Source of the DNA: Candidatus Levybacteria bacterium GW2011_GWA1_37_16
GTDB taxonomy: Bacteria; Patescibacteriota; Microgenomatia; Levybacterales; UBA12049
Assembly (NCBI GenBank): GCA_943354875.1
Contig: CALRDJ010000005.1
Location: 1-38,016, forward strand
Reading direction: 5' to 3'
Length of the DNA stretch: 38,016 bases
Shown: positions 2,267 to 34,343 of the stretch, one piece after another
How the letters are laid out: every line of letters starts with the position of its first letter
Position numbering within the stretch: the first letter of the stretch is position 1
Program-made: the position numbers and the translations under genes
The notes under the pieces: generated by a model
The model's input: the letters and a program-made list of their open reading frames with translations, nothing else
The model's database searches: none
Told to the model about the DNA's origin: nothing

Positions 2267-2267
2267 A

Positions 2268-3197
2268 CTATGATTCTAACTCAGAAATAACTTCATCATC
2301 CGTTTTTGTAAAATGTTTTTGAACACTTTTTCGAGAATTTAAAACAGATGGTAATAAAAATAATGCCTGAAAAAACCCATTGAACCATGCACCGTCACCT
2401 CGCAATAAGGCTTTTACGTAATGGTAACCTAACCACTCTAGGTGAGAAATCAGTGTTCGACCACTAGCGTTTTTCCAAACAAAAATAAATTGATTCCTAT
2501 ATGCTATAGATGTGATTTCTCTTTTAGAATATAAGGATTGAATTATTCCTTTTTCATGCTCGTGCAGTACTACACTTTTTGGTTCGAACATAACACGATA
2601 ACCTGATTTCAGTGCTCGATAAGATAAATCTATGTCCTCCCAATAAAACGGATTATATAGTTCGTCAAGAGATCCTATTTTTTCTAAAATAGATTTACGA
2701 AAAGCGCCACTGCCACCACTTACCCATAAAGTACTATGGGTGTTCACCTCGCCTCTTCTATGTACCAAGAACCCCCTTCTCCACTCGCCTAATCCACGCC
2801 CTCGTAAAACGATCTTTCCTTCTTCTCTACTCTTGTCCATACAACCCACTGCAAATACTTTTTCATCAGAAAAATGCTCAATAAGAGAAATAAGAAAGTC
2901 TTTTTCTGGAGAAACATCAGTATTCAAAAGAACGACAATATCTCCAGAAGAATTTTTAATACCCTTATTTACCGTAGAAGAAAAACCAAGGTTTTTAGCA
3001 TTACTAAGAACTGTAATATCCTTCTGTTTAGATAAAAAATCTACACTATCATCCGTAGAGTCATCATCGATGATAATTATCTCAACATCGCTTTTCGTAT
3101 TTTTTTTATAAAAATCAATTGCCTCAAGAACCACTGGCAAATTCTTTTCTAATAATACTCGTCCATTAAAATTAGGAATGATAATGCTAATATTCAT
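2268..3197 (-). CDS. Glycosyltransferase family 2 (rhamnosyltransferase-like)
   Basis: ORF; NISIIIPNFNG, LLNTDVSPEKDFL, WVSGGSGAFRKSILEKIGSLDELYNPFYWEDIDLSYR. Confidence 0.87.
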   Translation of the reverse strand: MNISIIIPNFNGRVLLEKNLPVVLEAIDFYKKNTKSDVEIIIIDDDSTDDSVDFLSKQKDITVLSNAKNLGFSSTVNKGIKNSSGDIVVLLNTDVSPEKDFLISLIEHFSDEKVFAVGCMDKSREEGKIVLRGRGLGEWRRGFLVHRRGEVNTHSTLWVSGGSGAFRKSILEKIGSLDELYNPFYWEDIDLSYRALKSGYRVMFEPKSVVLHEHEKGIIQSLYSKREITSIAYRNQFIFVWKNASGRTLISHLEWLGYHYVKALLRGDGAWFNGFFQALFLLPSVLNSRKSVQKHFTKTDDEVISELES

Positions 3198-3199
3198 AA

Positions 3200-5482
3200 T
3201 TAAAATAAAAAGTTTTCAAACTCTACGATATGTTCACCTTTTGGAACAAATACCCCCCTGAAATTATAGTCTGTTCTATAAATCATTGCTGGAGATTTTA
3301 TGTTGTCCTTTGCTTCTCCAGTGAGATTGTCATGAAAAGTCTCACAGCAAATAGTTACCTTCCAGGTAGGATAAAAACTGTCTGTTAATACTAAAAACCC
3401 GTCTTTCTCATTTGTTGTCTTAATCGTAACTTTGTTTTTAGAATAGCTTGTAATAGATGCAACTCCAGCTGTCAAAGCAATCGCATTATTTAGATTAGAT
3501 TCGACAAAAGCAGTCCTCCTTAAATCTATTTTTGGATCAAGCATTTTTTTAATCATCTCCTCTTTTGATCTAATATACTCAACTCGCTCTACGAAGAACG
3601 CGCGCGGAAAAACGTTTTTATTTTCATATATCCTTGTTTCTCCCTCCTGAATCACTTTAGTTAATCTAGAAGAACTAATATCCGATAGAGACAATACATA
3701 CCTAACCCCTAACAGATCTATTATCTTTGAATCAAAGTTATGCGGAGTAATTATACGATTAAATCCGAAAGGGGATGAAATATCCGGCTTACCACGCTCT
3801 GAAGCAGCTATAAGCTCTCCATAGCTACGTAGGTACAGCGGATCATATCCATCTATGCTTTGCAGTTGATACATAATGGAAAAATTAGGAGCCATTATTC
3901 GTGAGTCTGTTGTCATGTATCTATAGTTTCCTATATTTTTTTGTAAAAAAGTGATTGCTTTCGTATTAGGAAACAGATATTGAGATTCCGTAAAGGGAAT
4001 AAATTTATCAGCAAAACGAAAGAGATCGAAAATAGTTAACAACACTAACATAGTACAAGTCATCATGATAAACCTTGTACCTCTCGATATATAACTAAGT
4101 AAAAATATAACTACAGATATACCTAAGGTTATCGAAGGAAAAATAAGATTTCTTTTCGCAATCATAATATTCTCGCTATTCACCCAAAGCAATATGCTGT
4201 TTCCATATAGTACAAATATCCACAATGTCATAAAAAAAGCTGTGACTATTCCTACTGGCAAAAGTAGTTTTTTCTGATTTTTTATAAAATAGTCCATTCC
4301 AAAAGCTGTCAAAACAGCAAAAGCGAAGTCTATAATTCCTAAAAGTCGAGTGGGCTGAGCAGTCGAAATAAAGGGAATCTTGAGCGAGAATGGAAGTTGA
4401 GATATAGGATTTTGAAAAGCAAATAAGAATGCAATAACTCCTAAAACACTAAAAAAAAGTGTTTTCCTATCTCTTCTAAAAAGAAGTGCGTAAGATACAA
4501 ATATCAGAGGCACTACTCCAATGTATCCGATTAGCTCTCCATAATTCCAGACTCCCCAGTAATTAAGCGTAGCCGGATTACCAAAAAAATCAGGAACTAA
4601 GAATTGCACCAAATGCTGCCATGGAATAAACCAGCCTTCACCCTGCCAGTTCAAGTCTATATTTCGAGCACTTAACAAAATAAGCTGCATCGTGGGTATC
4701 CACTGTATGGCAGAAAATAAAATAAAAAATACAAATGCTGTTCCTATAAAAAATATAGATCTATATCGCTTAGAAGAAACTACTTCAAAACCAGCATGCA
4801 TAAACACAACTACTGCAACGTAGAAAAAAGTCTGAAGATGTCCTGCAAAAAATGATGACGCTAGTGCTACGCAGAACAACATCGACCAAATAAATTTCTT
4901 TTTACCTTCATAAATAATCTTATCTAAACTTAGTAATATAAGAGGTAGCCATAATATTGCCTGAATAACCGTATTCCACTCCATCCATGCGACTGAAAAC
5001 CCACAAAATGAAAATACTATAGCTCCTAAAAAACTTGCCATTCTATGGAGCTTCATGTGATCCAAGTAATAATACAAAAATATTCCTGCCAATATGGGCT
5101 GAAGCATTATCAAAATACTCCATGCATCCTGAAACGAAAGAACGAAAAATAATAAGTTTAAAGGATACCACGGAGAAGACTGACTATTCGCCAAGAGTGG
5201 ATATCCAGCCATAGAGTATGGATTCCAAAGAGGAAGTTCCATTTTTTTCTCTCCGTTAATAACTAAGAACCGCCACGGATATTGCTGACGCACTGGGTCT
5301 GTAATGAGTGAGTTTTTAAAAGGCACTCCACGAGGATAGTCTTTCGCCAATAAGTCCCTAAATGGATGATATAAGCCGACAATTGTATCTGAGGGGATGG
5401 GAAGCTTACCAGAAAAAATATATGATCTAAAAAATAGTAGAGAAACTAAGACAATTAAAAAAGGAAATATTAATTTCTTCAT
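3200..5482 (-). CDS. YfhO-family membrane protein
   Basis: ORF; N-terminal PSDTIVGLYHPFRD, PLWNPYSMAGYPLLANSQS, C-terminal SFYPTWKVTI...GVFVPKGEHIVEF typical of YfhO. Confidence 0.8.
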   Translation of the reverse strand: MKKLIFPFLIVLVSLLFFRSYIFSGKLPIPSDTIVGLYHPFRDLLAKDYPRGVPFKNSLITDPVRQQYPWRFLVINGEKKMELPLWNPYSMAGYPLLANSQSSPWYPLNLLFFVLSFQDAWSILIMLQPILAGIFLYYYLDHMKLHRMASFLGAIVFSFCGFSVAWMEWNTVIQAILWLPLILLSLDKIIYEGKKKFIWSMLFCVALASSFFAGHLQTFFYVAVVVFMHAGFEVVSSKRYRSIFFIGTAFVFFILFSAIQWIPTMQLILLSARNIDLNWQGEGWFIPWQHLVQFLVPDFFGNPATLNYWGVWNYGELIGYIGVVPLIFVSYALLFRRDRKTLFFSVLGVIAFLFAFQNPISQLPFSLKIPFISTAQPTRLLGIIDFAFAVLTAFGMDYFIKNQKKLLLPVGIVTAFFMTLWIFVLYGNSILLWVNSENIMIAKRNLIFPSITLGISVVIFLLSYISRGTRFIMMTCTMLVLLTIFDLFRFADKFIPFTESQYLFPNTKAITFLQKNIGNYRYMTTDSRIMAPNFSIMYQLQSIDGYDPLYLRSYGELIAASERGKPDISSPFGFNRIITPHNFDSKIIDLLGVRYVLSLSDISSSRLTKVIQEGETRIYENKNVFPRAFFVERVEYIRSKEEMIKKMLDPKIDLRRTAFVESNLNNAIALTAGVASITSYSKNKVTIKTTNEKDGFLVLTDSFYPTWKVTICCETFHDNLTGEAKDNIKSPAMIYRTDYNFRGVFVPKGEHIVEFENFLF

Positions 5483-6546
5483 ATCAGGCTTCTTAATTTA
5501 CTATAAAACTTATCACTACTAAAAACTAACGCTCTCGCTTGAGCGCTTTTTGACATCACTTCCCACACATCCTTCTCTTCAGAAATAATTTGGGTATAGC
5601 CTATTAACTCCTCTATACTATTCCACAAAAACCCACTTTTCCTATTCTCAACTATTTCCATTTGCCCACCTGCATGAATCACTATCGGTACCGCACCAGC
5701 GCCCATAGCCTCAACTGTAGAAATACCAAAATGCTCTGCCTTCTCTGGATGTTTTTCAATATCCTCACCAAACCCAGAGGCATGCCAGTAAATTTTTGCC
5801 CGACCATATGCCTCCCATAACTTCTCATTTGAAGGATTAACAATGAATTCTATCGGGTAATCACTCCCAAGTTTTCTTAATAATTCAAATCGCTCATTAT
5901 CCCTCTCTGCTACGCTTATTACAAAAACCAGCTTCCAGTTCTTAAAGCCTCCATCAATCATCTTTTTAAAAGCCTGTATTAGCACATCCTGCTTTTTAAA
6001 ATAAACACCTTCTACGTGCTGCCCGAACCTCCCTACATTTAAAATTACATTTTCTTTTTCTATTTCGACTTCCTTAATTTCGACAGGAGGATATAATACA
6101 TCACTGCTAACTGTAAATTTCTTGTCGATAAGTTCTTTCGTAAATTCAGAGTTACAAAGTATCTTTTCTACTCGTTTTAACTTAAGCTGAGTCTTGATCA
6201 ACCTGCCGTCTACCCATTCCACAGGAAACTGGAAATGGAGAATAAGTCCACACGATACGACAGGAATACTCCCATCACTAAGAAAAATTATCTTATCGTA
6301 CCGCTTACTTCGCAGTAATCTAGATACCACAGAAACAGAGGAGGAGAAGATATTGGACACAAATGATATATTTGAAATATCAATTCCTAATTTTTTCTGC
6401 GCATTGTACTTCAAAGACTCTTCATCCTTTGGATCCCAAAAAAGTGACACTTCGTGCTCTTTCGCTAAGCATGCAGCCATGGAGAGGATATACTTCTCAC
6501 CACCAGTGAGAGTATCCAAGTAGGGCGTATAAATACCGATCTTCAC
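5479..6546 (-). CDS. Glycosyltransferase family 4 (group 1)
   Basis: ORF; YLDTLTGGEKYILSMA N-terminus, NVGRFGQHVEGVYFKKQD, HFGISTVEAMGAGAVPIVIHAGGQMEIV. Confidence 0.85.
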   Translation of the reverse strand: MKIGIYTPYLDTLTGGEKYILSMAACLAKEHEVSLFWDPKDEESLKYNAQKKLGIDISNISFVSNIFSSSVSVVSRLLRSKRYDKIIFLSDGSIPVVSCGLILHFQFPVEWVDGRLIKTQLKLKRVEKILCNSEFTKELIDKKFTVSSDVLYPPVEIKEVEIEKENVILNVGRFGQHVEGVYFKKQDVLIQAFKKMIDGGFKNWKLVFVISVAERDNERFELLRKLGSDYPIEFIVNPSNEKLWEAYGRAKIYWHASGFGEDIEKHPEKAEHFGISTVEAMGAGAVPIVIHAGGQMEIVENRKSGFLWNSIEELIGYTQIISEEKDVWEVMSKSAQARALVFSSDKFYSKLRSLI

Positions 6547-6602
6547 CTATTAATTGTATCAAGTTTTAGGCCAAGGAGTAAAAGATATGTTATAATAATT
6601 AA

Positions 6603-6830
6603 ATGAATGCTGATATAGCTGGAATGCTTCCGTTTCTCATCTTTTTATGGTCTGTTTCTTGGGGAGGACTAGCGCTGTGGAGAGCCTCGAAACTGGATCA
6701 AAAAAATTGGTTCATAGCGCTGCTAGTGTTTTATTTATATACCTTTGGGACACTTGCTATTGTCTATTTATTTTATTTCGCGAAAAAGAAGTTGACCAGA
6801 AAAGAATTATTTTCTTTTTTTAAACGCTAG
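6603..6830 (+). CDS. Small membrane protein, DUF5652-like
   Basis: 75-aa ORF, WSVSWGGLALWRASKLDQKNWFIALLVFYLYTFGTLAIVYLFYF, two hydrophobic segments; extended -10 TGtTATAAT just upstream. Confidence 0.7.
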   Translation: MNADIAGMLPFLIFLWSVSWGGLALWRASKLDQKNWFIALLVFYLYTFGTLAIVYLFYFAKKKLTRKELFSFFKR

Positions 6831-9067
6831 AACTCCTCATATTTAAACGTCACAATTGATTCCCCCATCGGCACTTCTACAGCACGAAACGCATAATCAG
6901 CACGGAAAATCCTCGTAGCATAAGAGGTTCCACTCTGTGTTATCGTAGCATGCCAGTTTTTATAATAAACATCCGACAAGAAAAGAAGCGCAGGAGTATC
7001 ACTATGTACCCGTATCTCTATCATGCTTGGCTTATACGAAACTATGGTAGCGCTTCCAGCACCTTTAGGATTTGATCTAATTTTTGGACTTTCCTCCAAA
7101 ATAAGAGTAGTGCGATAATCAAATTCCTGACTATAAAATCTTTTTAATATAACATCCCCATCAGGAATTACTTCAAAAGTATAAAATAGCATTGCTCGCG
7201 GTAAAGCAGTGTTATTCTTGAACAGCTGAAACAAATTGTCACTATATACGAGCTCAAATCGCTTCTGGTCTTTCCATACCGGGTACGCCCAGCCCTGATT
7301 TGTATCTGCTACCGGATGAAACACAAGAGAAACTCCCAGTAAGTCTATGACTCTATCTGCATATTTTCCCAGCCTATCAAGACCAACAACAGACCGCTGA
7401 GCCGATTCTTTGTCTCCAGTTCTGGCTGTTTGTATAAATACTCCATATCGCTCTATATATAATGGGTCATATCCATCAATCATGGGAAACCCGTAATAAC
7501 TGGCTACCTCAGCACCCAAGTTACCCAGCAATCTACCACTACCTATATATTTTTGGATACCGGCAATAATAGGTAAGTTAGGATATACAAGACTTCGAGG
7601 ATCAAATGGTACCCATTTTTGTGCATATCTAAAACTATCAAATGCAGTTCCTAAAAGGATAAAAATTACTAGAAAAATAAAAAATCTTTTGTAGTAAAAA
7701 GACATCGCTCCTATCGTTATCAAACCGAGGTACAAACCAGTCGGTAATAATAAATTTCTCTTTGCAATCAAAATATTTTCAGGTGAAAAAGGCTTCAATA
7801 GAAATAAGTAAACCCAGATCCCAACGATAACCATGCCCACACCTACTAATGGCCATATCAAGGATCGCCATTTTTTAACTTTTAGCTCCTGCATAAAGTA
7901 ATCAAATCCCATGCCCGCCAAGATACTTATGGCAAAACTAAATAAAGCCACTATTCGAGAAGGGTTACTGGTCGAAAGTACAGGGATTTTCAAGCTTCCT
8001 ATAATTGACTGCACTGGTGAGTCAATGACAAGCACCAACACTATTACTGCCAAGATCCAAAAAAACTGTATATTTTTTTTACCTGAATAAATAGAAAAAA
8101 GCGATAAACTCACTGGTAAGATACCTACAAAACTCGCCCATTCAGCGTAATATCCGAACCAGTCATTCCGAGTAACTGGATTTCCAAAGAAATCCCCAGC
8201 TACCAATGTTATAAGATATGAAAAAGGAATACCACCTGATTTGATAAAAATACTGCTCCTAACGGAGTCCTCATACAGAGAAATCGAGGGAATTAACTGG
8301 ATCAGTGATATAAAAAATCCTAATACAAAAGCTACTCCCACCCATAAACCATCACGAACGCGCCTCACAGTAATAGCTTTATAGATTAAGAAACTGAACA
8401 CAGTTATTAAGACATACATACTGGTTTGAAAATGTCCGGAAAAAAGAGACAACGCTATCGAAAAAGAAAGAATAGGTAAAAAACTCATTTTTCTCGTCTC
8501 GTACCATTTCTGTATCGCATAAAGTGCCAAAGGCAAGAAACATAAAGCCATGGAAAGGGTTCCATATGGCATCCATACCACCATAAAACCAGAAAACATA
8601 AATGCAATTGATGAAACCACCGACCCCACATCACTAACTCTTAAGGACCGCATGAGCAAATAGGTAAAAACCCCAGCGAGAAGTGGCTGTAAGATAATTA
8701 TGAGACTCCATGCATCGATAAATGGCAAAACAAAATATAATGCGTTAAACGGAGAAAAAACTGCAGACTGAAAATTTCCTACATGACCATTTCCTGAAAA
8801 ATTGTAAGGATTCCACCAAGGAATTTGTCCCGCTTTCAATGACTCAATCGTAAATTTTTTCCACGGATATATTTGATCTACGATATCAGGCATAGCTCCA
8901 TTTTTTACAGGACCCCAAAATTGCTGGTTTGAACTCCAAGGAGGAAAATGATTAACTTGATAAGTAGAAGGATAAGGAACTAATCCCTTTAAAAGATATG
9001 GACTAACAAATAGTAGCCAAACTGAAAAAATCAATAGCGCTGGCCAAATCTTCAGGAGAAGTTTCAT
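6827..9067 (-). CDS. YfhO-family membrane protein
   Basis: ORF; IPWWNPYNFSGNGHVGNFQSAVFSPFNALYF, FLSDVYYKNWHATI, VEVPMGESIVTFKY. Confidence 0.8.
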   Translation of the reverse strand: MKLLLKIWPALLIFSVWLLFVSPYLLKGLVPYPSTYQVNHFPPWSSNQQFWGPVKNGAMPDIVDQIYPWKKFTIESLKAGQIPWWNPYNFSGNGHVGNFQSAVFSPFNALYFVLPFIDAWSLIIILQPLLAGVFTYLLMRSLRVSDVGSVVSSIAFMFSGFMVVWMPYGTLSMALCFLPLALYAIQKWYETRKMSFLPILSFSIALSLFSGHFQTSMYVLITVFSFLIYKAITVRRVRDGLWVGVAFVLGFFISLIQLIPSISLYEDSVRSSIFIKSGGIPFSYLITLVAGDFFGNPVTRNDWFGYYAEWASFVGILPVSLSLFSIYSGKKNIQFFWILAVIVLVLVIDSPVQSIIGSLKIPVLSTSNPSRIVALFSFAISILAGMGFDYFMQELKVKKWRSLIWPLVGVGMVIVGIWVYLFLLKPFSPENILIAKRNLLLPTGLYLGLITIGAMSFYYKRFFIFLVIFILLGTAFDSFRYAQKWVPFDPRSLVYPNLPIIAGIQKYIGSGRLLGNLGAEVASYYGFPMIDGYDPLYIERYGVFIQTARTGDKESAQRSVVGLDRLGKYADRVIDLLGVSLVFHPVADTNQGWAYPVWKDQKRFELVYSDNLFQLFKNNTALPRAMLFYTFEVIPDGDVILKRFYSQEFDYRTTLILEESPKIRSNPKGAGSATIVSYKPSMIEIRVHSDTPALLFLSDVYYKNWHATITQSGTSYATRIFRADYAFRAVEVPMGESIVTFKYEEF

Positions 9068-9076
9068 AGTGAATTT

Positions 9077-9844
9077 TTAATTTTTTGATTTCGAACTATT
9101 TAAATCACTCTGCATTTCCCATAATCTCGCGTAGGTAATAAACATACTGAATCCTTGATAGGTACTTTCAATAAATCCTACTACGCCAAGTCTCCATCCC
9201 TGCTGACGAATATATGAATCAAAAAATGCGGTAAACATTACTCGCGGAAACCTCCACCAAGTCATCAGTGGATGTCCTGAGTCAAACCGAAGCTTTGCCT
9301 CTATCTGAGACCATTCGATAGTCTTTCTAAGCATAGAGGTCAAATCACGATGCGTGTAATGAAGAATGAATCCATCCAACTGCTCTACCGCTCCTTTAAC
9401 GATCGGAGTTTCATGCACTATACCATGCCAACCTTCTAAGTATTCTTTTCTAAATAGTCTTTCCAATGACTCTATAAAAGGCCATTCGTACTCTCCAAAA
9501 TAAAAATTCTTTCTCCACAGCTTATACGCTACTATATTCTCTTTCGAAATAGCTCGCCGCAGATACACAACTAACTCTGGCGTGATCCGCTCATCTGCGT
9601 CTACATACAGCACCCATTCTTCCCCGGCATGTCTTAATCCCTCCATGCGGAGTTTTGAAAAATCATGAACTCTGGATACTATTACACGAGCTCCCATTCT
9701 CTTGGCAATTTCTGCCGTATTATCGGAGGATCCGTTATCAACCACTAGCACTTCGCTACAAAACTGTAGTGAATCCAAACAGTCTGCTATCATTCCCTCT
9801 TCGTTTTTCGCGATGATTATAGCTGTTACGTTAATTTTTGACAT
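9077..9844 (-). CDS. Glycosyltransferase family 2 (WaaE/KdtX-like)
   Basis: ORF; VTAIIIAKNEEGMIADCLDSL, VLYVDADERITPEL, HGIVHETPIV. Confidence 0.85.
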   Translation of the reverse strand: MSKINVTAIIIAKNEEGMIADCLDSLQFCSEVLVVDNGSSDNTAEIAKRMGARVIVSRVHDFSKLRMEGLRHAGEEWVLYVDADERITPELVVYLRRAISKENIVAYKLWRKNFYFGEYEWPFIESLERLFRKEYLEGWHGIVHETPIVKGAVEQLDGFILHYTHRDLTSMLRKTIEWSQIEAKLRFDSGHPLMTWWRFPRVMFTAFFDSYIRQQGWRLGVVGFIESTYQGFSMFITYARLWEMQSDLNSSKSKN

Positions 9845-10742
9845 AGCTACCCTTCCCGAATTTCATTAAGTAAAAATCTAAAACACCTTTTTTCTGCCAT
9901 GGTCTCCCGTTAAAGATTAAACGTAAGCTCTCACGAAAAACACTCATCCTTGACCTAAATGATGCATATCTTAAAGCAAACAGCAATCTATTTCTCGTAA
10001 TATAGTAGTCTTGAAGCGCAGATCCTGACCCTCCAGTAGAACCAGCATTCTTATGCCAAATTACCGATTTTGAACTATACCAAATATGATATCCTGCTCG
10101 TTTTACTTTCTCAGAAAAATCTGCATCTTCATAATATAAAAAGTATGTTTCGTCAAAAAATCCAACCGCATCCAAAACGTCCCTACTTACGAGAAAAGAA
10201 CAGCCCGTGGCGAAATCTGTTAGCATATCTTTACTAAACTGTCCCTTGTCTACCTCATCTACTCCCCGATGCTTCCCTAAAATATTATCCCAGTCCATTT
10301 CTCCACCTGCATACCAAATAACTTTTCCTAACTCGTTTTTTTCATATTTATCTTTATGAAATTCACGTCCTTTTGAAAAATATATCTTGGGACTTACCAA
10401 TCCTGCTCTTGTATTCTTTTTATACGTATTTACCAACTCATCTAAAAAATCTGGGTCAACCAAGGTATCATTGTTTAATACACAGACATAATCACATCCC
10501 GATTCAAGAGCTCTCCTGATTCCGACATTATTTCCTGCAGCAAATCCTACATTTTCTTTATTCTTAAGACATTCCAATGTGTATGGGAGATCTGAAGTTT
10601 TAAGTTTGAGGTTTTCTTTTGAGTTATTGTCTACTACAATTACTATCAACTCATACTTAGTCTTAAGTTTTGATATTGATTCTAAACACTCTTGAGTATC
10701 ATGATTACCATTGTAATTTACGATAATTATTCCTATTTTCAT
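9831..10742 (-). CDS. Glycosyltransferase family 2 (rhamnosyltransferase-like)
   Basis: ORF; IGIIIVNYNGNHDTQECLESI, VLNNDTLVDPDFL, FFDETYFLYYEDADFSEKVK. Confidence 0.87.
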   Translation of the reverse strand: MKIGIIIVNYNGNHDTQECLESISKLKTKYELIVIVVDNNSKENLKLKTSDLPYTLECLKNKENVGFAAGNNVGIRRALESGCDYVCVLNNDTLVDPDFLDELVNTYKKNTRAGLVSPKIYFSKGREFHKDKYEKNELGKVIWYAGGEMDWDNILGKHRGVDEVDKGQFSKDMLTDFATGCSFLVSRDVLDAVGFFDETYFLYYEDADFSEKVKRAGYHIWYSSKSVIWHKNAGSTGGSGSALQDYYITRNRLLFALRYASFRSRMSVFRESLRLIFNGRPWQKKGVLDFYLMKFGKGSYVKN

Positions 10743-26090: not shown

Positions 26091-26166
26091 GGCCCCATCG
26101 TCTAGTGGCCTAGGACATCAGATTCTCATTCTGAGAACCGGGATTCGAATTCCCGTGGGGTCACCA
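26091..26166 (+). tRNA. tRNA-Glu (anticodon CTC)
   Basis: Cloverleaf folded by hand: acceptor GGCCCCA/TGGGGTC, anticodon stem-loop TCAGA-TTCTCAT-TCTGA with CTC, T-arm CCGGGATTCGAATTCCCG; CCA at 26164-26166. Confidence 0.93.
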
Positions 26167-27637
26167 AAGTTGTTTCATCGCCTGAAAAATCCCTAATTAG
26201 GTTGAAAGGAAGGCCTAAAGTAGCGGTTCCAAAGTTTTCGTTAGATACAGGAAGACCGTTTGGAAACATCAACGATTGGAAACGTTGTTTATTATCAAAA
26301 GACGCTTCAAACCAAACAGAAGAAACATTCTCAAGCAAGCTCTCTGCAAGACTTACAATGTGATCCATATTTGCTTCTATTGACCTAAGCTCAGTTCGCT
26401 CCAGTTCTTGCATAGCTAACTGGTCGCTGAAGGCCTCTACTTGCTCTTTGTATTCCTTATCACTTACTGTTCCCTGAAGGTTCTTAACTAACAATCGCTT
26501 CTTTAGTTCTTTAAGGTTAAAAATTTCAGTATCTATCTCATCTATTGCTTTCTTTTCTTCAGCATGTTTTCTTTTCCATATATCAACTAGTAGTAATTTG
26601 AATATCTTATTAAACTCTTTATTTGGCTGGATATACTTGAGATAATCATAAAATTTATTTTCAAATACCTCTTTTGATACCCTCACGGCACCACAAATGC
26701 AATGATAATATGAATACTTTTTACTTCTTCCAGTAGAACTACTTGCGGTAATATTTCTTGCACATTTTAGACATTTAAGGATATTTTTTAGTGGGAAATT
26801 ATGGTTGTTAGTTGAATGAGAAACAGATGCCTGAACAGACCTTCCAAGCCTAATTGATTCTACCTTATAAAAAAGATCATTGCTGATTAGGGGTTTATGT
26901 ATACCCAGATGGGTTTCGCCCCAAGCTTGGCATATTCCTATATAAAGCTTGTTGCTAAACATTTTGATCAAAAATTGAGAGGTAATTTTCTTACCATTGC
27001 CTGTTCTTAAGCCCAATCTATTTATTTTATTTACAACAAACTTTATTGTATAGCCACCATTTGCATAAATTTCAAATGCCTTTTTAATAAATTGCGCACT
27101 ATTTGCATCTACAATTAATCCAATTGGGGAGTTTTTGTAACCCAAGGGGGCTTTCCATGGCCATTGTCCCTGTCTTAGTTTTTCGAGCATTCCTGCTTTT
27201 GTTCTTTCAGATCTTGTATCATTATCAAATTGAGCTGCTGCTGAAAAAATGGACTCCATAAATTTCCCTCCGGGTGTATCGTCAACTAGCTCTGTTGCCG
27301 AACGAACCTTAACTCCCAATTTAAGCAAGATTGCCTTAACAGTGTGATGATCTGCAGATGAACGAGAAAACCTGTCAAATTTATAGACAAGTAGCACATC
27401 TACCAAGCCCTTATTTTTTCTACAATATTCAATTAACTTGATGAGTTCAGTTCTATTCGCAGTTTTAGCAGATTCTCCCTCTTCTTTAAAAACTTCTATG
27501 ACCTCCCATTCTTGCCTTTGCGCATACTCTCTACACGCCTTTTCTTGTGAACTAAGTGAGAAATTTTCTACCTGTTCTTTTGTAGAGACTCGTGTGTAAA
27601 GGATTGCTTTCATGGTTTTTATCTGTTCTATTTCCAT
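26126..27637 (-). CDS. Large serine recombinase / site-specific integrase (resolvase + recombinase + zinc beta-ribbon)
   Basis: ORF; AILYTRVSTKEQ, VLLVYKFDRFSRSSADHHTVKAILLKLGVKVRSATE, GKFMESIFSAAAQFDNDTRSERTKAGM, ILKCLKCARNITAS...YYHCICGA, C-terminal coiled coil. Confidence 0.95.
   Translation of the reverse strand: MEIEQIKTMKAILYTRVSTKEQVENFSLSSQEKACREYAQRQEWEVIEVFKEEGESAKTANRTELIKLIEYCRKNKGLVDVLLVYKFDRFSRSSADHHTVKAILLKLGVKVRSATELVDDTPGGKFMESIFSAAAQFDNDTRSERTKAGMLEKLRQGQWPWKAPLGYKNSPIGLIVDANSAQFIKKAFEIYANGGYTIKFVVNKINRLGLRTGNGKKITSQFLIKMFSNKLYIGICQAWGETHLGIHKPLISNDLFYKVESIRLGRSVQASVSHSTNNHNFPLKNILKCLKCARNITASSSTGRSKKYSYYHCICGAVRVSKEVFENKFYDYLKYIQPNKEFNKIFKLLLVDIWKRKHAEEKKAIDEIDTEIFNLKELKKRLLVKNLQGTVSDKEYKEQVEAFSDQLAMQELERTELRSIEANMDHIVSLAESLLENVSSVWFEASFDNKQRFQSLMFPNGLPVSNENFGTATLGLPFNLIRDFSGDETTLVTPREFESRFSE
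26151..26164 (+). repeat. Left att core direct repeat (within tRNA-Glu)
   Basis: tcccgtggggtcac, identical to 34330-34343. Confidence 0.85.
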
Positions 27638-27677
27638 TGTGTGCCTTTCATTTTATCGAGTCAATAACCCCAAGTTG

Positions 27678-27815
27678 TTATTTGGAACCATTTTCTGCAG
27701 CCTCAAGCATAAGTTCTGCTAGATGCTCCAACTGATTAAGTATCTCCTGTACTTGGTGGTCGGAATAATCCTTAGATTTTTTACCTAATATTTTCCTAAC
27801 TTCTATGATAGTCAT
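27678..27815 (-). CDS. Small hypothetical protein, 45 aa (not in the ORF track)
   Basis: Hand translation: MTIIEVRKILGKKSKDYSDHQVQEILNQLEHLAELMLEAAENGSK*; start 27815, stop 27678-27680. Confidence 0.6.
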   Translation of the reverse strand: MTIIEVRKILGKKSKDYSDHQVQEILNQLEHLAELMLEAAENGSK

Positions 27816-27869
27816 AAAAAAAATCAGCATCCGGTTGGGGAACAAGATGCTGATCACTTTCCCCCAACC
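27816..27869 (-). ncRNA. Predicted H-type pseudoknot followed by poly-T (regulatory RNA or terminator)
   Basis: Minus strand: GGTTGGGG-GAAAGTGA-TCAGCATC-TTGTT-CCCCAACC-G-GATGCTGA-TTTTTTTT; two perfect 8-bp interleaved stems (one extendable to 9 bp) then T8. Confidence 0.6.
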
Positions 27870-27883
27870 TATTTTCCTACTAA

Positions 27884-27951
27884 AAAAGGACTACAAATCT
27901 CTAGAATAAAACTCAAAATATCGAGTTATCTAGACGGTTTGCAGTCCTTTT
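27884..27951. repeat. Long interrupted inverted repeat / hairpin
   Basis: AAAAGGACTaCAAA/TTTGcAGTCCTTTT (13 of 14 paired) enclosing TCTAGA/TCTAGA and AACTC/GAGTT with loop aaaatatc. Confidence 0.8.
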
Positions 27952-28027
27952 AAGGAGTTAGCTTCGTCGTTGAAGTCGGTACTAGGTAAAGTTTAGAGGA
28001 TAAAAGAACAGGAAGGCAAGATGGAGA

Positions 28028-28240
28028 TTAAAGTAGGTCTTTAGCCTGTATTTTTAATGCTTTTGCAATTTTTTCTAGCACTTCAAGTGAAGGAGCGTAT
28101 CTACCTTGTTCAATAAATCCCATGTAGGCCCGGCTAATTCCTACCTTCTCAGCAAGCTCTTCTTGCGTATAGCTTAGCTGCTTTCTTTGCTTCTGAATCT
28201 TATCTCCAATTACTCTTGGCAATCGTGCATTACTTCTCAT
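28028..28240 (-). CDS. XRE-family HTH transcriptional regulator
   Basis: 70-aa ORF; IGDKIQKQRKQLSYTQEELAEKVGISRAYMGFIEQGRYAPSLEVLEKIAKAL. Confidence 0.93.
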   Translation of the reverse strand: MRSNARLPRVIGDKIQKQRKQLSYTQEELAEKVGISRAYMGFIEQGRYAPSLEVLEKIAKALKIQAKDLL

Positions 28241-28275
28241 GGCTTAATTATTGAGGTTAACTGAGGCAAACTAAA

Positions 28276-28338
28276 CTAAGCTACGCTTAGCACTTAGCCT
28301 TGTTTCAAGCTTGTATTTCTGCTAAGCTAGAGTTAGCA
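28276..28338. promoter_or_regulatory. Paired operator-like palindromes in the divergent region beside the XRE gene
   Basis: CTAAGCTACGCTTAGCA (28276-28292) and CTAAGCTAGAGTTAGCA (28322-28338), 14 of 17 identical, each a dyad. Confidence 0.6.
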
Positions 28339-28355
28339 ATATACAATAAATAACT

Positions 28356-28883
28356 ATGAATATTTTTCAACGTCTGACTATTTATTTCCGAAACCAATAT
28401 CTTGACTGGCAAAGAGCTTATTCAATTGATGATTTACCGAAAAAGCTAGACGATTTAGATATATATAATGAGTTACCAAAATGGCTTGTTGATGAATTAG
28501 AAGCAATTATTAAGGTTTATAAACCGAAAAATAAAAAGAAACTTTATTTAATCAAGTTTGATAAGAAATTTACTACTGATCAAGCTGAGCGTGAACTAAG
28601 CCTACTTGGTCTTTTACCAGCGAATATTGTAGAAATAGTCTTATTTGTTAATAAGTATTCAAAAACAGTAAATGAGAGACCTATTATTGCATTGAATTCT
28701 TACCATGACTACTCAAAAGCGTTTAAAGAGATACTGAAAACCTACAGCCGTCCTCCTAAATATGACCTATGTGTTTGCTACACTTCCTTAGGATTTGAAC
28801 GACCAGGAGAAATAGAATCATGCGAAGCAATGAATGGAGCAGTATTTAGTATTGGAACAACATTTATTGCTAAATCTTTTTAA
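28356..28883 (+). CDS. Hypothetical protein
   Basis: 175-aa ORF, divergent from the XRE gene, no family recognised. Confidence 0.7.
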   Translation: MNIFQRLTIYFRNQYLDWQRAYSIDDLPKKLDDLDIYNELPKWLVDELEAIIKVYKPKNKKKLYLIKFDKKFTTDQAERELSLLGLLPANIVEIVLFVNKYSKTVNERPIIALNSYHDYSKAFKEILKTYSRPPKYDLCVCYTSLGFERPGEIESCEAMNGAVFSIGTTFIAKSF

Positions 28884-28884
28884 A

Positions 28885-29217
28885 ATGAGAACAGCATTTA
28901 TTATCATTTTGAGCGTATGTTGCATTGTTGTTTCGGTTTCTATTGCTTACTATTTTATATTATTTCTTCCCCAACAACAGCGTGTTAATACAGCCACGCT
29001 TAAAAAAATTGAGCAGCAAGCAATAAAAACTAAAGAAAATACCGAAAACATACCATCAACTAGTACAACAAGTATAGAAAACCGATTAGATGACATAAAT
29101 AACTCAATAGAACAACAAAATGCAGATATGGAATATGAGCAAAAAAGAAGAGGCTGGTGTGAACAAGGCGGTGGAATATATTATGGGAATGGTTCTTGTA
29201 TAACCTCACAAAAATAA
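28885..29217 (+). CDS. Hypothetical protein with single N-terminal TM segment
   Basis: ATG at 28885; MRTAFIIILSVCCIVVSVSIAYYFILFLPQQQR then Gln/Asn-rich coiled coil. Confidence 0.65.
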   Translation: MRTAFIIILSVCCIVVSVSIAYYFILFLPQQQRVNTATLKKIEQQAIKTKENTENIPSTSTTSIENRLDDINNSIEQQNADMEYEQKRRGWCEQGGGIYYGNGSCITSQK

Positions 29218-29271
29218 GAACTTTTATCTAAAAAGCAGAATTTGAAATCGTTGAAGGAGTATAATTAAACT

Positions 29272-29928
29272 ATGATACATAAACAAACTCAACTTACACT
29301 TTACCTTATACGTCATGCGGAATCGGAAATGAACCAAAATCCTCATTTAATTGGAGGAAGAAGTCCACGCACTCCTCTTTCTCCTCTTGGAATAGAACAA
29401 GCTATGAAATTAGGTAAGTATTTTCATAAGCATGATATTACATTCAATGCAATTTATTCATCCACTGCGGTAAGAGCGATTGGAACAGCAAGACTGGTAC
29501 TTAAAGAATTTAATGTACCGGAAGACAATGTCACTACCACAGATCAACTCGTTGAGATTGGTCAGGGAGATTGGGAAGGAAAACTCAGAACAGAAACTTA
29601 TACACCAGATACCTTGAGCTACATGAATACAAAAGGTCCGATATTCACTCCCCCAAATGGCGAGTCTCAATTAATGTGCGAACATAGAGTATCTAGTTGG
29701 TTTATTGAAGAAATACTCAATAATAAAAAATATATGGGTAAAGAAACCACAATTGCAATTTTTTCTCACGGTATAACAATAAAGTGTTTGCTTCATTTTG
29801 TAATGCATTTTAACGATAGGCTAATTTATCGAATAACACTCGATAATACCAGCATGTGTAGGCTAAGGCTTACTCCTGATGGATGGTTTATTGACAGTAT
29901 TAACGATACGTCACACTTAGGCCAATAA
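29272..29928 (+). CDS. Histidine phosphatase family protein (phosphoglycerate mutase-like)
   Basis: ORF; LYLIRHAESEMNQNP, IYSSTAVRAIGTARLV, LVEIGQGDWEGK, IAIFSHGITIKCLL. Confidence 0.92.
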   Translation: MIHKQTQLTLYLIRHAESEMNQNPHLIGGRSPRTPLSPLGIEQAMKLGKYFHKHDITFNAIYSSTAVRAIGTARLVLKEFNVPEDNVTTTDQLVEIGQGDWEGKLRTETYTPDTLSYMNTKGPIFTPPNGESQLMCEHRVSSWFIEEILNNKKYMGKETTIAIFSHGITIKCLLHFVMHFNDRLIYRITLDNTSMCRLRLTPDGWFIDSINDTSHLGQ

Positions 29929-29982
29929 ATCCCAATTTCACTTAAATAAATTTTGGGTAAGTTTAGTATTTTAGCCTCGTTT

Positions 29983-30011
29983 TTGACAAACCATCGCTAA
30001 ACTGATACTAT
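29983..30011 (+). promoter_or_regulatory. Putative promoter of the leader preceding the 30113 ORF
   Basis: TTGACA (29983-29988), 17-bp spacer, TACTAT (30006-30011). Confidence 0.55.
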
Positions 30012-30050
30012 ATAAATAGCTTTAGCGTCCTAATTTAACGAAGGAGTCCA

Positions 30051-30116
30051 TTGCAGCTACCATTCTGGAGCTGTATTTTTTTGGCTTCAGACGGTTACAA
30101 AACCGAAAGGAGGTGA
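30051..30116 (+). CDS. Candidate leader peptide ORF (21 aa, TTG start)
   Basis: AAGGAG at 30041-30046, then TTG CAG CTA ... AGG AGG TGA = MQLPFWSCIFLASDGYKTERR*; the stop overlaps the next gene's Shine-Dalgarno. Confidence 0.35.
   Translation: MQLPFWSCIFLASDGYKTERR
30052..30082 (+). terminator. Putative intrinsic terminator/attenuator in the 5' leader
   Basis: TGCAGCT ... AGCTGTA stem with inner CC/GG, followed by T7 (30076-30082), located between promoter and CDS. Confidence 0.45.
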
Positions 30117-30121
30117 AAAAT

Positions 30122-30472
30122 ATGGAAACAAAACTAAGGTGCCACTTAATAGAGGGTACCCCTACAGAGTCTGATTTATCTCCTAGTGACGCACACTTCG
30201 ATGTTATAAAAACATTTGAAGAAGATAGCCATTTATCCAGACGTATTCTCAAATGTAAGAGATGCGGACAGCTGTACTTCTATGAGTTTTATGAAGAGAT
30301 TGATTGGAAAGAAGGAAACGATTCTCAATACTGCACATACATTCCAATCGAAACAGTAGAAGAAGCGGAAGAGTTGAATAAAAAATCTCAATTTGCACTG
30401 CTCGGCGTAGTCCCAAGACTACAAGACGACTTCTTACAAGACGGTACAAAAACAATCGAGTGGATGAGGTAA
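30122..30472 (+). CDS. Hypothetical protein with one Cx2C motif
   Basis: ATG at 30122 with AAGGAGGTG upstream; METKLRCHLIEG...LKCKRCGQLYFYEFYEEIDWKEGNDSQYCTYIP. Confidence 0.75.
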   Translation: METKLRCHLIEGTPTESDLSPSDAHFDVIKTFEEDSHLSRRILKCKRCGQLYFYEFYEEIDWKEGNDSQYCTYIPIETVEEAEELNKKSQFALLGVVPRLQDDFLQDGTKTIEWMR

Positions 30473-30527
30473 AATGAGAGATAGATTGATTAAGAGTATG
30501 CTATAGTAGTGGAAAGGTTTTGCCTAT

Positions 30528-30713
30528 ATGAAAGCGAACAACTTACCACTTAAGAATACTAAGCATTCACCAAAGACGGATCTGTCCAGTCAGGACGAAG
30601 ATTTCATACACAATTTGAACGTGGGAATGCCCTCATCGGAGAGGAGAGGTCAGATATTAGTGGAAAATCTCAATCGAAACCTACTCAAGAAACAGCCCCC
30701 ACAAGAGAAGTAG
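30528..30713 (+). CDS. Hypothetical small protein (uncertain)
   Basis: 61-aa ORF MKANNLPLKNTKHSPKTDLSS...; another frame stays open to 30799. Confidence 0.3.
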   Translation: MKANNLPLKNTKHSPKTDLSSQDEDFIHNLNVGMPSSERRGQILVENLNRNLLKKQPPQEK

Positions 30714-30795
30714 TCCCCGATTTCCAAATAAACGACTTCACGCCTAAAAAGGAGGCTCAACGGGTTATTAAAAAAATGATTATGTTTATGAAATT

Positions 30796-31122
30796 TTAGA
30801 CAGAAGATTCGACCATGCCTTTAAATCTTTGTTTTCTATACTTTAAATTAAAACACGTTCTGCATCCAATTATTTCTACTACTGGGTGCCTATAAAGTGC
30901 TCCAACCCTTTTCTTGCAATTTGGACACGCAAACCAGAACCTCTCACCATTGAATTTTGTTTTGGATGTGGTTAGGTTAACCACGACTCCTAGCACCTCA
31001 ATCTGGGCTTGTAGAAGCCTTCTCTTAAGCTCTTTTTGGGCTTTGCTTATCAAATCATCTACCTTGATCTTTTCAAAGTTTTCCACGACTAAAAAACTTC
31101 CTAAATCATATGGGTTTAACAT
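30796..31122 (-). CDS. Zinc-ribbon hypothetical protein
   Basis: ORF; FACPNCKKRVGALYRHPVVEIIGCRTCFNLKYRKQRF (CxxC...CxxC). Confidence 0.75.
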   Translation of the reverse strand: MLNPYDLGSFLVVENFEKIKVDDLISKAQKELKRRLLQAQIEVLGVVVNLTTSKTKFNGERFWFACPNCKKRVGALYRHPVVEIIGCRTCFNLKYRKQRFKGMVESSV

Positions 31123-31684
31123 TTTTATTATCCTGTATAAGTTGGTTCTGTCCTACAATCGTTGTGTTAGTTCTGATGTTAACATTTAGAGAAGGTTGCT
31201 TTAACATTCTCAATGTATGCAAGCCAGATAAGTATTGTCTACTTGCTCGATCTAGCTCTTTGCTTAGGGTAGCAAAAAATAAAATATCTGTTTTACTCAT
31301 CTGATCGTTTATATAATTATTTATCCTTCTTTGAAGTTCTAGAATTCGAACGAAATATAGGGTAACAAGCTCAGTAGTCGCTTTCTCGCTTGGAAGCGTA
31401 CAATTATACTCTTCTTGTAATTGTCGCATAAAGTCTATTGCGAAAGTCCTATATTGCTCAGGCACAATCGTGTACATGAGTGCTCCATTTTCAAATTCAA
31501 CAAGGGTCATTGCTCTAAAAAAATTACTTTTTACATCAACAGCCTTCCTACCATTGTTTCCATTACTAAATTCCTTATCAATCTCTCTCAATACATGATC
31601 GGGGTCAATTTCTAACTTATTTTTCTTTAGATGCTCACGGATCTCGACTGGTGTTTTTATTGAGGTTATAGAATTTTTACTCAT
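31106..31684 (-). CDS. Hypothetical helix-rich protein
   Basis: 192-aa ORF, 17-bp overlap with the downstream Zn-ribbon gene. Confidence 0.7.
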   Translation of the reverse strand: MSKNSITSIKTPVEIREHLKKNKLEIDPDHVLREIDKEFSNGNNGRKAVDVKSNFFRAMTLVEFENGALMYTIVPEQYRTFAIDFMRQLQEEYNCTLPSEKATTELVTLYFVRILELQRRINNYINDQMSKTDILFFATLSKELDRASRQYLSGLHTLRMLKQPSLNVNIRTNTTIVGQNQLIQDNKNVKPI

Positions 31685-31695
31685 AATAACCAGAA

Positions 31696-32670
31696 TTACA
31701 GCTCTATTTTCAAAGTTACTATTTCATTTATTCCTATTGCCTCAGATAGCCTAGAGAAGATGATTCGCATTTCGTCAGGAATAACCCTAGCATATCCACC
31801 TGTATTTAAGAAGAAATAAACCCTATCATATTGAACCATGTTTTTATCCCCGTCTCGTTTTCTAAGTAACTGCTTAATAGCGTCTTTTGAACTGTTAATA
31901 TAGCGAGAATAAACTGAACTTAAATCAAGAAACGCGTCTTTTGCCGTATTGAACATAGTTACTCCTCCTCCATACATAAATAAAAATCCAATATTACCCC
32001 TTTTTACATCGATTTTAAAGGTGAATCTATCTATTGTTTGTATGTGGTGCTTTATATCGTTTGTTTTTATTAATGGTCCAAGATCAACAATCAATTGATC
32101 CGTTGCGTGTTTCATCCTTTTATAAAAATCTTTTACGCTTGAGAAGTCAGATAATATGTAGTCGCATTGTATGTATATATTTTTCTGAAAAGACTCATCA
32201 ACAATACTTTGGACATGAAATTTATTATGCAAAATACTAAATCCAGGATCTATGTCATCTAGTTTTTTAACTTCTGCAAATCGCTTTATTCCATCTTCGG
32301 TATATTCGATATCAGGGTTTCCCTCTCCTGATATAAAGCTAATATCATTCATACCTTCTTCTTTTAAGAGCTTAGCAACATTGAGTTCTGCAATTACAGA
32401 AAGATATTCTATATCAAAGTTTGTTTTTAATCTGGATAAGGGCTCTTTAATATTTGTAAAATTTCTTTCTGCTATGAAATTTTCCAGTCCAGAAAGATTG
32501 GGCGAGTCTATTGCAGCATATCTTAAAAGTGGAATTTCAAGTAACTCCATAAAACTCTTACTACTTTCAACTTGGTTAATTACAACTTCTCTAAAATGCT
32601 CCTCAATTAAAGGATACTTTTTTAGATTTTTTGTTGCATTTTCCAATAGTTGTTTTTTATCTGTTGTCAT
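31696..32670 (-). CDS. Putative PD-(D/E)XK nuclease-like protein
   Basis: ATG start at 32670; VIAELNVAKLLKEEGMNDISFISGEGNPDIEYTEDGIKRFAEVKKL matches an E...PD...ExK arrangement. Confidence 0.6.
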   Translation of the reverse strand: MTTDKKQLLENATKNLKKYPLIEEHFREVVINQVESSKSFMELLEIPLLRYAAIDSPNLSGLENFIAERNFTNIKEPLSRLKTNFDIEYLSVIAELNVAKLLKEEGMNDISFISGEGNPDIEYTEDGIKRFAEVKKLDDIDPGFSILHNKFHVQSIVDESFQKNIYIQCDYILSDFSSVKDFYKRMKHATDQLIVDLGPLIKTNDIKHHIQTIDRFTFKIDVKRGNIGFLFMYGGGVTMFNTAKDAFLDLSSVYSRYINSSKDAIKQLLRKRDGDKNMVQYDRVYFFLNTGGYARVIPDEMRIIFSRLSEAIGINEIVTLKIEL

Positions 32671-32675
32671 TATTC

Positions 32676-33122
32676 TCAAGCGTTGCTTTCTATGCTTTTT
32701 TTATAATCTTCTAATCCACCAACCTCTTCTCCTGTAAAAAGAAGCATGCGAAGCATCACTTTGCTTTTTACTAAGGGTGATTCCACCATGGCCCGATAAA
32801 TTCCAATAGCCCTATGAATACCATCAGTAATTACAATGGGAGAAGCGTCATTTTTTCTCATACCAAAAACTGTCGTGTCTGTATAGTAATTTTCGAGGAT
32901 TGTTTTTTTGCAAAGATTTATCTTTTTTATCTTCTCATCTTTATGGTGATCAGGAATGTTCTCGTCCTTTAAAAAATCTTTTATATTTTTACCTGTCTGC
33001 CACATAACATATATCGCTCCTAAATTATCTAAATTAACAATGCCGTACACAGGCATAGCACCAGCTCCAGCCATTAAATATAAAGCTCCAGTCGCATTAT
33101 TATCTATTTCTTTAAGATCCAT
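32676..33122 (-). CDS. ParB/sulfiredoxin-like protein (DGxHR motif)
   Basis: ATG start MDLKEIDNNATG at 33122; SPIVITDGIHRAIGIYRAM resembles the ParB/Srx core motif. Confidence 0.45.
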   Translation of the reverse strand: MDLKEIDNNATGALYLMAGAGAMPVYGIVNLDNLGAIYVMWQTGKNIKDFLKDENIPDHHKDEKIKKINLCKKTILENYYTDTTVFGMRKNDASPIVITDGIHRAIGIYRAMVESPLVKSKVMLRMLLFTGEEVGGLEDYKKSIESNA

Positions 33123-33123
33123 A

Positions 33124-33825
33124 TTAAGAGGGTTTTGATAGAAACGTATAAAACTTGCAAATAACTTCAGCGCCAACTTTTAAAATTTTTGTGTTATCTT
33201 TACCTGAGACATCTTGATACTTACCATGCCTAACAACATCAGCAAAAGTTTTAGCAAAATCTACGTCCTCTCTTTTTATACTTAGCTTCTGACGTATTCC
33301 CTCCCATTCAAGAGTCTCATTTTTTAAATCAGTTGGATAAAAATGCTTTTTAATATTTTCTATGGCAAGATATACAAAAAGCCCCGTATATGCAGTGTAA
33401 CGCCTAGCATTTTTGAAATTGCTTAACGCAAGCCTAAGGCTCATATGTTCAATCGCAGCACCCATAAATATTTCCATCTGGGGCAATTCTTCTATCTGCA
33501 AGTCTCCTAAGAGCTCTTCTAAGCTTGCCTCGCTATATTTTTCCTCACTATCATCATGTTTAACCATTTCTAGCCTTACTTCGTAAATCTCGCCTGTTAT
33601 GAACGAGTAGGCGTCTACAAGCCCTTGTATCGTTTGCTCTGCAGATTTTAGAGCAGTCCCCGCGTTTTCAATATGATCAGCGACAAGTGTAGCGGTAATT
33701 ATCGATTTTTGTATTTCAAAACCGAAAGTTCCCAGTTTTGATGGGTTGGCGCTAGGTACGACTGGATAACTAACTTTTTTAGGGAAAAAGGGCAACACTC
33801 TTCCAAGAAATATATACTGCTTCAT
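33124..33825 (-). CDS. Hypothetical protein
   Basis: 233-aa ORF, first gene of the minus-strand operon; extended -10 TGaTATAAT just upstream. Confidence 0.7.
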   Translation of the reverse strand: MKQYIFLGRVLPFFPKKVSYPVVPSANPSKLGTFGFEIQKSIITATLVADHIENAGTALKSAEQTIQGLVDAYSFITGEIYEVRLEMVKHDDSEEKYSEASLEELLGDLQIEELPQMEIFMGAAIEHMSLRLALSNFKNARRYTAYTGLFVYLAIENIKKHFYPTDLKNETLEWEGIRQKLSIKREDVDFAKTFADVVRHGKYQDVSGKDNTKILKVGAEVICKFYTFLSKPS

Positions 33826-33834
33826 TGCAGCGTA

Positions 33835-33843
33835 ATTATATCA
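33835..33843 (-). promoter_or_regulatory. Extended -10 promoter element of the 5-gene minus-strand operon
   Basis: Minus strand TGATATAAT ending at 33835; ATG at 33825. Confidence 0.45.
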
Positions 33844-33883
33844 TCGATTCTAGTATCCCATGGTAGTATAAATTTGTGGCAAA

Positions 33884-33962
33884 CTAGGCTCAGGATTTAG
33901 GATTGGTTTCCATTGCTCAAGGGAGGCACGAATCTGGTTCCAATTCGAAAACATTTGGGTCA
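33884..33962. repeat. 79-bp imperfect repeat, copy A (possible degenerate tRNA-like sequence)
   Basis: Ungapped match to 35074-35152, 56 of 79 identical by hand count. Confidence 0.55.
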
Positions 33963-33984
33963 CTTCGGCAAGCTCAGTGCAAGC
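33963..33984 (+). repeat. Imperfect inverted repeat, left arm, flanking the GIY-YIG gene
   Basis: cttcggcaagctcagtgcaagc; its reverse complement matches 34255-34276 at 17 of 22. Confidence 0.65.
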
Positions 33985-33990
33985 ACTTCT

Positions 33991-34302
33991 ATGGACAGAA
34001 GGTTACCATGGTTTGTCTACATGCTTCTTTGCGATCAGAAAACGTTTTATATCGGCATTTCTGATGACCTCAAAAACAGGCTCTCTCAACATAAAAACAA
34101 ACAAAACATCTCAACTAAAAAGTTTTCTGATCTTAGACTTATTTATGCTGAGCGATACTTGAATAAGCTTGATGCGACCAAGCGAGAAAAACAGCTAAAA
34201 GGTTGGTCGCATACAAAGAAGCAGATGCTTATTGACGGAAAACTTGGTATAAATGCTTGTACTGAGTTGGCGAAAGAGCTCGTTCGAGAGTTAGAACTTT
34301 GA
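33991..34302 (+). CDS. GIY-YIG endonuclease domain protein
   Basis: Likely start ATG at 33991 (MDRRLPWFVYMLLCDQKTFYIGISDDLKNRLSQHKN...RLIYAERYLNKLDATKREKQLKGWS). Confidence 0.9.
   Translation: MDRRLPWFVYMLLCDQKTFYIGISDDLKNRLSQHKNKQNISTKKFSDLRLIYAERYLNKLDATKREKQLKGWSHTKKQMLIDGKLGINACTELAKELVRELEL
34255..34276 (+). repeat. Imperfect inverted repeat, right arm, within the GIY-YIG 3' end
   Basis: gcttgtactgagttggcgaaag. Confidence 0.65.
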
Positions 34303-34329
34303 GTTTACTTCGAGCTAGCCGAGAAGAAG

Positions 34330-34343
34330 TCCCGTGGGGTCAC
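34330..34343 (+). repeat. Right att core direct repeat
   Basis: tcccgtggggtcac, identical to 26151-26164 in tRNA-Glu. Confidence 0.85.

Follow-up and report, generated by a model that had tools for sequence, protein, structure and literature searches.

The locus and its five-gene operon

The window, i.e. the whole stretch of 38,016 nucleotides analysed here, corresponds to contig C5 in a genome of 1.05 Mb. Towards its right end lie five minus-strand genes, all co-directional, which we number in the order of their transcription:

33124..33825 (-), gene 1, 233 aa, ATG start
32676..33122 (-), gene 2, 148 aa, ATG start
31696..32670 (-), gene 3, 324 aa, ATG start
31106..31684 (-), gene 4, 192 aa, ATG start
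30796..31122 (-), gene 5, 108 aa, ATG start, Zn ribbon

The spacing from gene 1 to gene 5 is +1, +5, +11 and -17 nt (genes 4 and 5 overlap by 17 nt), and all five reading frames are intact. A sequence-only reading of this DNA had proposed such a tightly spaced operon and had singled out within it a nuclease-type E...PD...ExK spacing, a ParB/Srx-like motif and a CxxC..CxxC Zn ribbon. All of these are present, as E..NPD..EVK in gene 3, DGIHRAIGIYRA in gene 2, and CPNC together with CRTC in gene 5. Searches of Pfam, NCBIfam and PADLOC gave no significant match for any of the five genes (among the PADLOC models only LmuB responded, to gene 1, with E=0.015), and sequence searches of the PDB returned nothing meaningful for any of them.

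An integrative element at tRNA-Glu

A genomic island of ~8.2 kb contains the five genes, which make up its right-hand operon and lie in its right half. The remaining features of the island and its borders are:

26091..26166 (+), tRNA-Glu (CTC), integration target at the left end (ARAGORN)
26126..27637 (-), large serine recombinase (Pfam: PF00239 5e-36, PF07508 1e-9, PF13408 0.05)
26151..26164, left attachment repeat TCCCGTGGGGTCAC, 14-bp exact repeat, tRNA 3' end
28028..28240 (-), small XRE/Cro-like HTH regulator, like the HTH genes of loci L055 and L056 (sequence reading)
28356..30713 (+), plus-strand cargo block of five ORFs (ORF list)
29272-29928 (+), histidine phosphatase (Pfam: His_Phos_1 1e-35)
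33913..34302 (+), GIY-YIG-type endonuclease ORF just inside the right attachment repeat (sequence motif; weak PADLOC hits)
34330..34343, right attachment repeat TCCCGTGGGGTCAC, 14-bp exact repeat, right island end

The recombinase comprises a resolvase, a recombinase and a weak Zn-ribbon domain, and its ORF ends at 26126, within the 3' half of tRNA-Glu. A match of 14 bp to the tRNA 3' half was reached in 1 of 300 simulated flanks. Since the recombinase ends in tRNA-Glu and the 14-bp repeat reproduces the tRNA 3' end, the island is bounded at about 26151-34343, and the earlier suggestion that the cargo sits on an integrated island holds. The serine recombinase would insert its own ~8.2-kb element into tRNA-Glu. 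No empty site was found in 40 related genomes, because nearly all of them lack the right-flank gene (one weak match).

The plus-strand block encodes a 175-aa protein of unknown type, a 127-aa protein with a single TM segment, the histidine phosphatase, a 119-aa CxxC protein and a 61-aa ORF, none of which apart from the phosphatase belongs to a significant Pfam family. No primase gene was seen among the ORFs and Pfam matches of the island. The GIY-YIG-type ORF stops 28 bp before the right attachment repeat, and a repeat-like stretch, CTTCGGCAAGCTCAGTGCAAGCACTTC, precedes it. To the left of the island, positions 70-26003 hold a nearly one-strand run of glycosyltransferase-like and large membrane-protein genes that extends up to tRNA-Glu and is probably a cell-surface polysaccharide cluster.

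Genes 4 and 5 form a recurring backbone pair

Relatives of gene 4 occur in 6 of 196 other genomes of the phylum, and in all six gene 5 directly adjoins. Further loci with both genes were found in two closer relatives (L055, L056) and on one viral contig (L047), which brings the elements with both genes, besides that of the window, to nine. In eight of them the two genes are neighbours; in L056 replication genes sit between them. A site-specific recombinase is encoded in every one of the eight genome loci of the pair (serine in seven, tyrosine in L036), and on the viral contig the recombinase end lies outside the sequence covered. The serine recombinase ends inside a tRNA gene in L034 (Trp), L035 (Glu), L038 (Glu) and L039 (Gln). 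Small mobile islands inserted at tRNA genes recur among related ultra-small bacteria, with genes 4 and 5 as their backbone. A description of this element family was not found in the literature searched, which covered few subscription journals.

The sister elements also carry replication genes, namely a Prim-Pol in L036, a Toprim protein in L039 and a DnaG-type Zn ribbon in L056, and helicase-like proteins can be read from the sequences of L034, L035 and L047. In gene 5 the cysteines C66, C69, C87 and C90, which make up the CPNC and CRTC motifs, are invariant across seven homologues, as are about 16 further residues. Weak Pfam hits of gene 5 to ADD_ATRX and MCM_OB fell below the cut-off and were rejected. 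Genes 4 and 5 probably serve the DNA metabolism of the element, be it replication alongside a primase, excision or DNA packaging.

A distant homologue of gene 5 lies on a Legionella plasmid, within an element that encodes a tyrosine integrase; the genes for AlpA and a RepB-type primase precede the homologue there. This stretch (L050, Legionella adelaidensis plasmid, 849-7477) encodes the integrase, an FRG-domain protein, AlpA, the RepB-type primase and the gene 5-like Zn-ribbon protein, and is possibly a proteobacterial cousin of the elements with genes 4 and 5.

The sequence-only reading had gone further and had taken all five genes as one undescribed system, naming their co-occurrence in other genomes as the test. 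A dedicated defence or DNA-processing system of this kind, with genes 4 and 5 as working parts, would agree with the tight spacing and common direction, from which a shared transcript is likely. Genes 1-3, however, are absent from all nine other elements with genes 4 and 5, which have different cargo each time, and in the collections searched genes 1-3 were never found together outside the window; relatives of genes 1 and 2 stand singly in unrelated neighbourhoods. The single-system claim thus fails on this comparison: it is largely refuted, and we consider it very unlikely. The five genes are two things joined, a recurring backbone pair (genes 4-5) and three nearly unique passengers (genes 1-3), and the earlier interpretation is partly supported. 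The passengers occupy a part in which members of the island family often have genes against phages.

Gene 4 and a possible small-terminase-like fold

The structural model of gene 4, built from only two sequences, consists of two long helices followed by a C-terminal beta hairpin (pLDDT 61; core about 84). In a Foldseek search its five best PDB fold matches were all HK97 small terminase, with probabilities of 0.98-0.99, TM scores of 0.54-0.64 depending on the target and an rmsd of 3.2-3.4 A, at fold E-values of 0.35-0.62, which are not significant. This resemblance, along with the satellite-like gene set of the sister elements, speaks for a phage-satellite-like (PICI-like) family composed of integrase, HTH regulator, primase, a TerS-like gene 4 and defence cargo. 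Against it stand, besides the non-significant E-values and the limited model, the profile comparisons: hhalign of ten gene 4 proteins against HK97-type TerS gave a probability of 0.1%, and none of the ten matched a terminase in Pfam or PHROGs. Homology of gene 4 to TerS, hinted at by the fold, was not supported by hhalign, Pfam or PHROGs, and a satellite nature of the family appears improbable.

Terminase-like genes do occur elsewhere on the viral contig of L047, about 30 kb from its gene 4-gene 5 pair. There, positions 3695-7318 of L059 encode two ORFs that look like DNA methylases and, after them, ORFs resembling small and large terminases, and this stretch is probably a separate mobile element.

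Cargo of the sister elements

Recognisable defence genes are present in five of the nine sister elements, and a sixth (L035) encodes an Mrr-like nuclease:

L055, Avs2 (E=0)
L056, EcoRI-type methylase and GmrSD_N/HNH protein
L036, TIR protein
L039, type III RM
L047, type I methylase
L035, Mrr-like nuclease

The long Avs2 of L055 (1366 aa; locus positions 5888-9988) is the main cargo of that element, with the HTH gene on one side and genes 4 and 5 on the other. No attachment repeats were found for the sister elements, and some of the cargo genes listed could lie outside them. Six control regions of 15 kb from the same genomes contained what looks like one type II RM pair, besides several matches of housekeeping type, against several defence loci in seven elements. 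At about five of seven elements versus one of six control regions (one-sided Fisher ~0.08), the enrichment is only suggestive.

Genes 1-3: three nearly unique passengers

Gene 1 starts with an N-terminal 'MK..G.V.P' and has a helical C-terminal part with a conserved RH(G/A), which is the only conserved motif of HEPN type across three aligned sequences and comes with no family match. To judge from this motif, the C-terminal part is reminiscent of HEPN-type proteins. A paralogue of gene 1 is present on contig C15 of the source genome (23% identity, E=4e-10), and a Photobacterium plasmid carries a homologue (26%, 6e-6). Scanning genome contigs and viral contigs with a gene 1 profile yielded nothing. 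On contig C15 (L003, 6458-10133) the paralogue is the first gene of a tight operon that also encodes a class I methyltransferase and a helical protein of 261 aa. The operon is flanked by a Fic-like gene and tRNA-Lys; nearby, at 2703-4418, a second serine recombinase ends in tRNA-Arg.

In gene 2 the motif DGIHRAIGIYRA lies at residue 100 and contains DGIHR, which is ParB/Srx/DGQHR-like. The one good relative of this gene (L044:6979-7404, 32%, E=3e-19) conserves the motif as DGVHRAIGIQKA and overlaps a type I HsdS gene by 4 nt; the locus of the two (L044, 4945-9016) lies beside tRNA-Gly. Gene 2 also matches weakly a PHROG without assigned function (E=4e-4), and a scan of viral contigs gave nothing. 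Homology to ParB/Srx was not recovered in Pfam, NCBIfam or, in any meaningful way, the PDB. A profile match to the PDB chain 'Ika8', which we took for a designed protein, was discarded. Similarities to ORFs of ~630 aa in L042 and L043 (E 2e-4 and 8e-4) were likewise set aside as chance, because their neighbourhoods are type IV pilus assembly loci.

Gene 3 carries E at ~95, NPD at 118 and EVK at 133. The corresponding pattern, E-x(8-40)-[GSNT]xPD[hydrophobic]-x(6-25)-[h][EQ][h]K, appeared in 24 of 20,000 shuffles of gene 3 (~1e-3) and in none of the other ~230 ORFs with 150 aa or more in the loci examined; the motif beats chance, yet it is a single motif in a single sequence. Up to 389 genomes from the phylum yielded no relative of gene 3, and neither did the collections of phages, plasmids, viral contigs and genome contigs, where the short-peptide seeds of the search could miss distant ones. 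An AF2 single-sequence model (pLDDT 37) was uninformative on the fold. The motif points to a putative PD-(D/E)XK-type nuclease, which would cut nucleic acid.

The ORFan or nearly ORFan character of genes 2 and 3 and the want of a primase would both fit a decaying remnant, in which reading frames happen to survive on a defective island. Five intact frames with tight spacing and in-frame starts argue otherwise, as does the backbone pair, which retains its conserved residues including the four cysteines, and decay appears extremely improbable as an explanation of this operon.

A role of genes 1-3 in the stabilisation, replication or transfer of the element itself has to be weighed as well. They lie directly upstream of gene 4, in the place where L035, L036, L039 and L047 have a primase or helicase, and the primase-free island of the window could here have a nuclease and ParB-like maintenance module in the primase position. 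No homologue of genes 1-3 exists in any sister element, however, the relative of gene 2 is found in a restriction-modification context, and the relatives of gene 1 belong to different operons; we hold a maintenance function to be unlikely. The position upstream of the backbone pair also fits exchangeable cargo.

We infer a shared defensive role of genes 1-3 from the gene 3 motif, the context of the gene 2 relative and the cargo of the sister elements; the idea of defence gains indirect support because those elements carry known defence genes. On balance we favour, with a probability of roughly 0.6, the reading that the operon joins the backbone pair of a tRNA-Glu integrative element to exchangeable, most likely defensive cargo in the form of genes 1-3. 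Under this reading the cargo would be transcribed ahead of the gene 4-gene 5 pair and would defend against phages or against other mobile DNA. The effector would be gene 3, as a nuclease of PD-(D/E)XK type; gene 2 would serve as a small partner or regulator with a ParB/Srx fold and gene 1 as a partner resembling HEPN proteins, all three presumably acting together.

Comparison with known elements and proteins

A genomic island with type I RM has already been described from Patescibacteria (PMC12455944), and dense defence repertoires have been reported for this group (PMC12259885). The element in the window resembles the described RM islands in being an integrated island with interchangeable, defence-type cargo; in its case the gene for the serine recombinase runs into a tRNA, and there is an attachment repeat. 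It differs from them in its recurrent gene 4-gene 5 pair, which is unmentioned in the papers found, and in a cargo that matches no known defence family. With PICI/SaPI/P4-like satellites the sister elements share the integrase, the HTH regulator, the primase or helicase, defence cargo and possibly a TerS-like protein, whereas profiles leave TerS homology unsupported and the window's element is without a primase.

At the level of single proteins, gene 3 has the order and spacing of E...PD...ExK in common with PD-(D/E)XK restriction and defence nucleases (e.g. the Mrr-like nuclease of L035), but the likeness is one of motif, without detectable homology to described families. Similarly, gene 2 shares its DGxHR signature with ParB/Srx-fold and DGQHR/GmrSD_N-type proteins, among them the GmrSD_N protein of L056 with its akin DGQQR, but is short (148 aa) and has no Pfam or NCBIfam match.

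Conclusions

In the best reading, genes 1-3 are rare and probably defensive passengers of an integrative element whose variant has not been described before. A bolder version takes genes 4 and 5, as a TerS-like protein and a Zn ribbon, for the mark of an undescribed and widespread phage-satellite-like class that shuttles defence between tRNA genes in Patescibacteria, genes 1-3 being a new defence system of three genes with a PD-(D/E)XK effector; this seems to us a long shot. Defence repertoires are dense in ultra-small bacteria and their mobile carriers are poorly described; the recurring pair offers a handle for finding integrative elements, and what appears to be traded defence cargo, in these organisms. 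Genes 1-3 are no longer an isolated oddity and become a testable candidate for new cargo.
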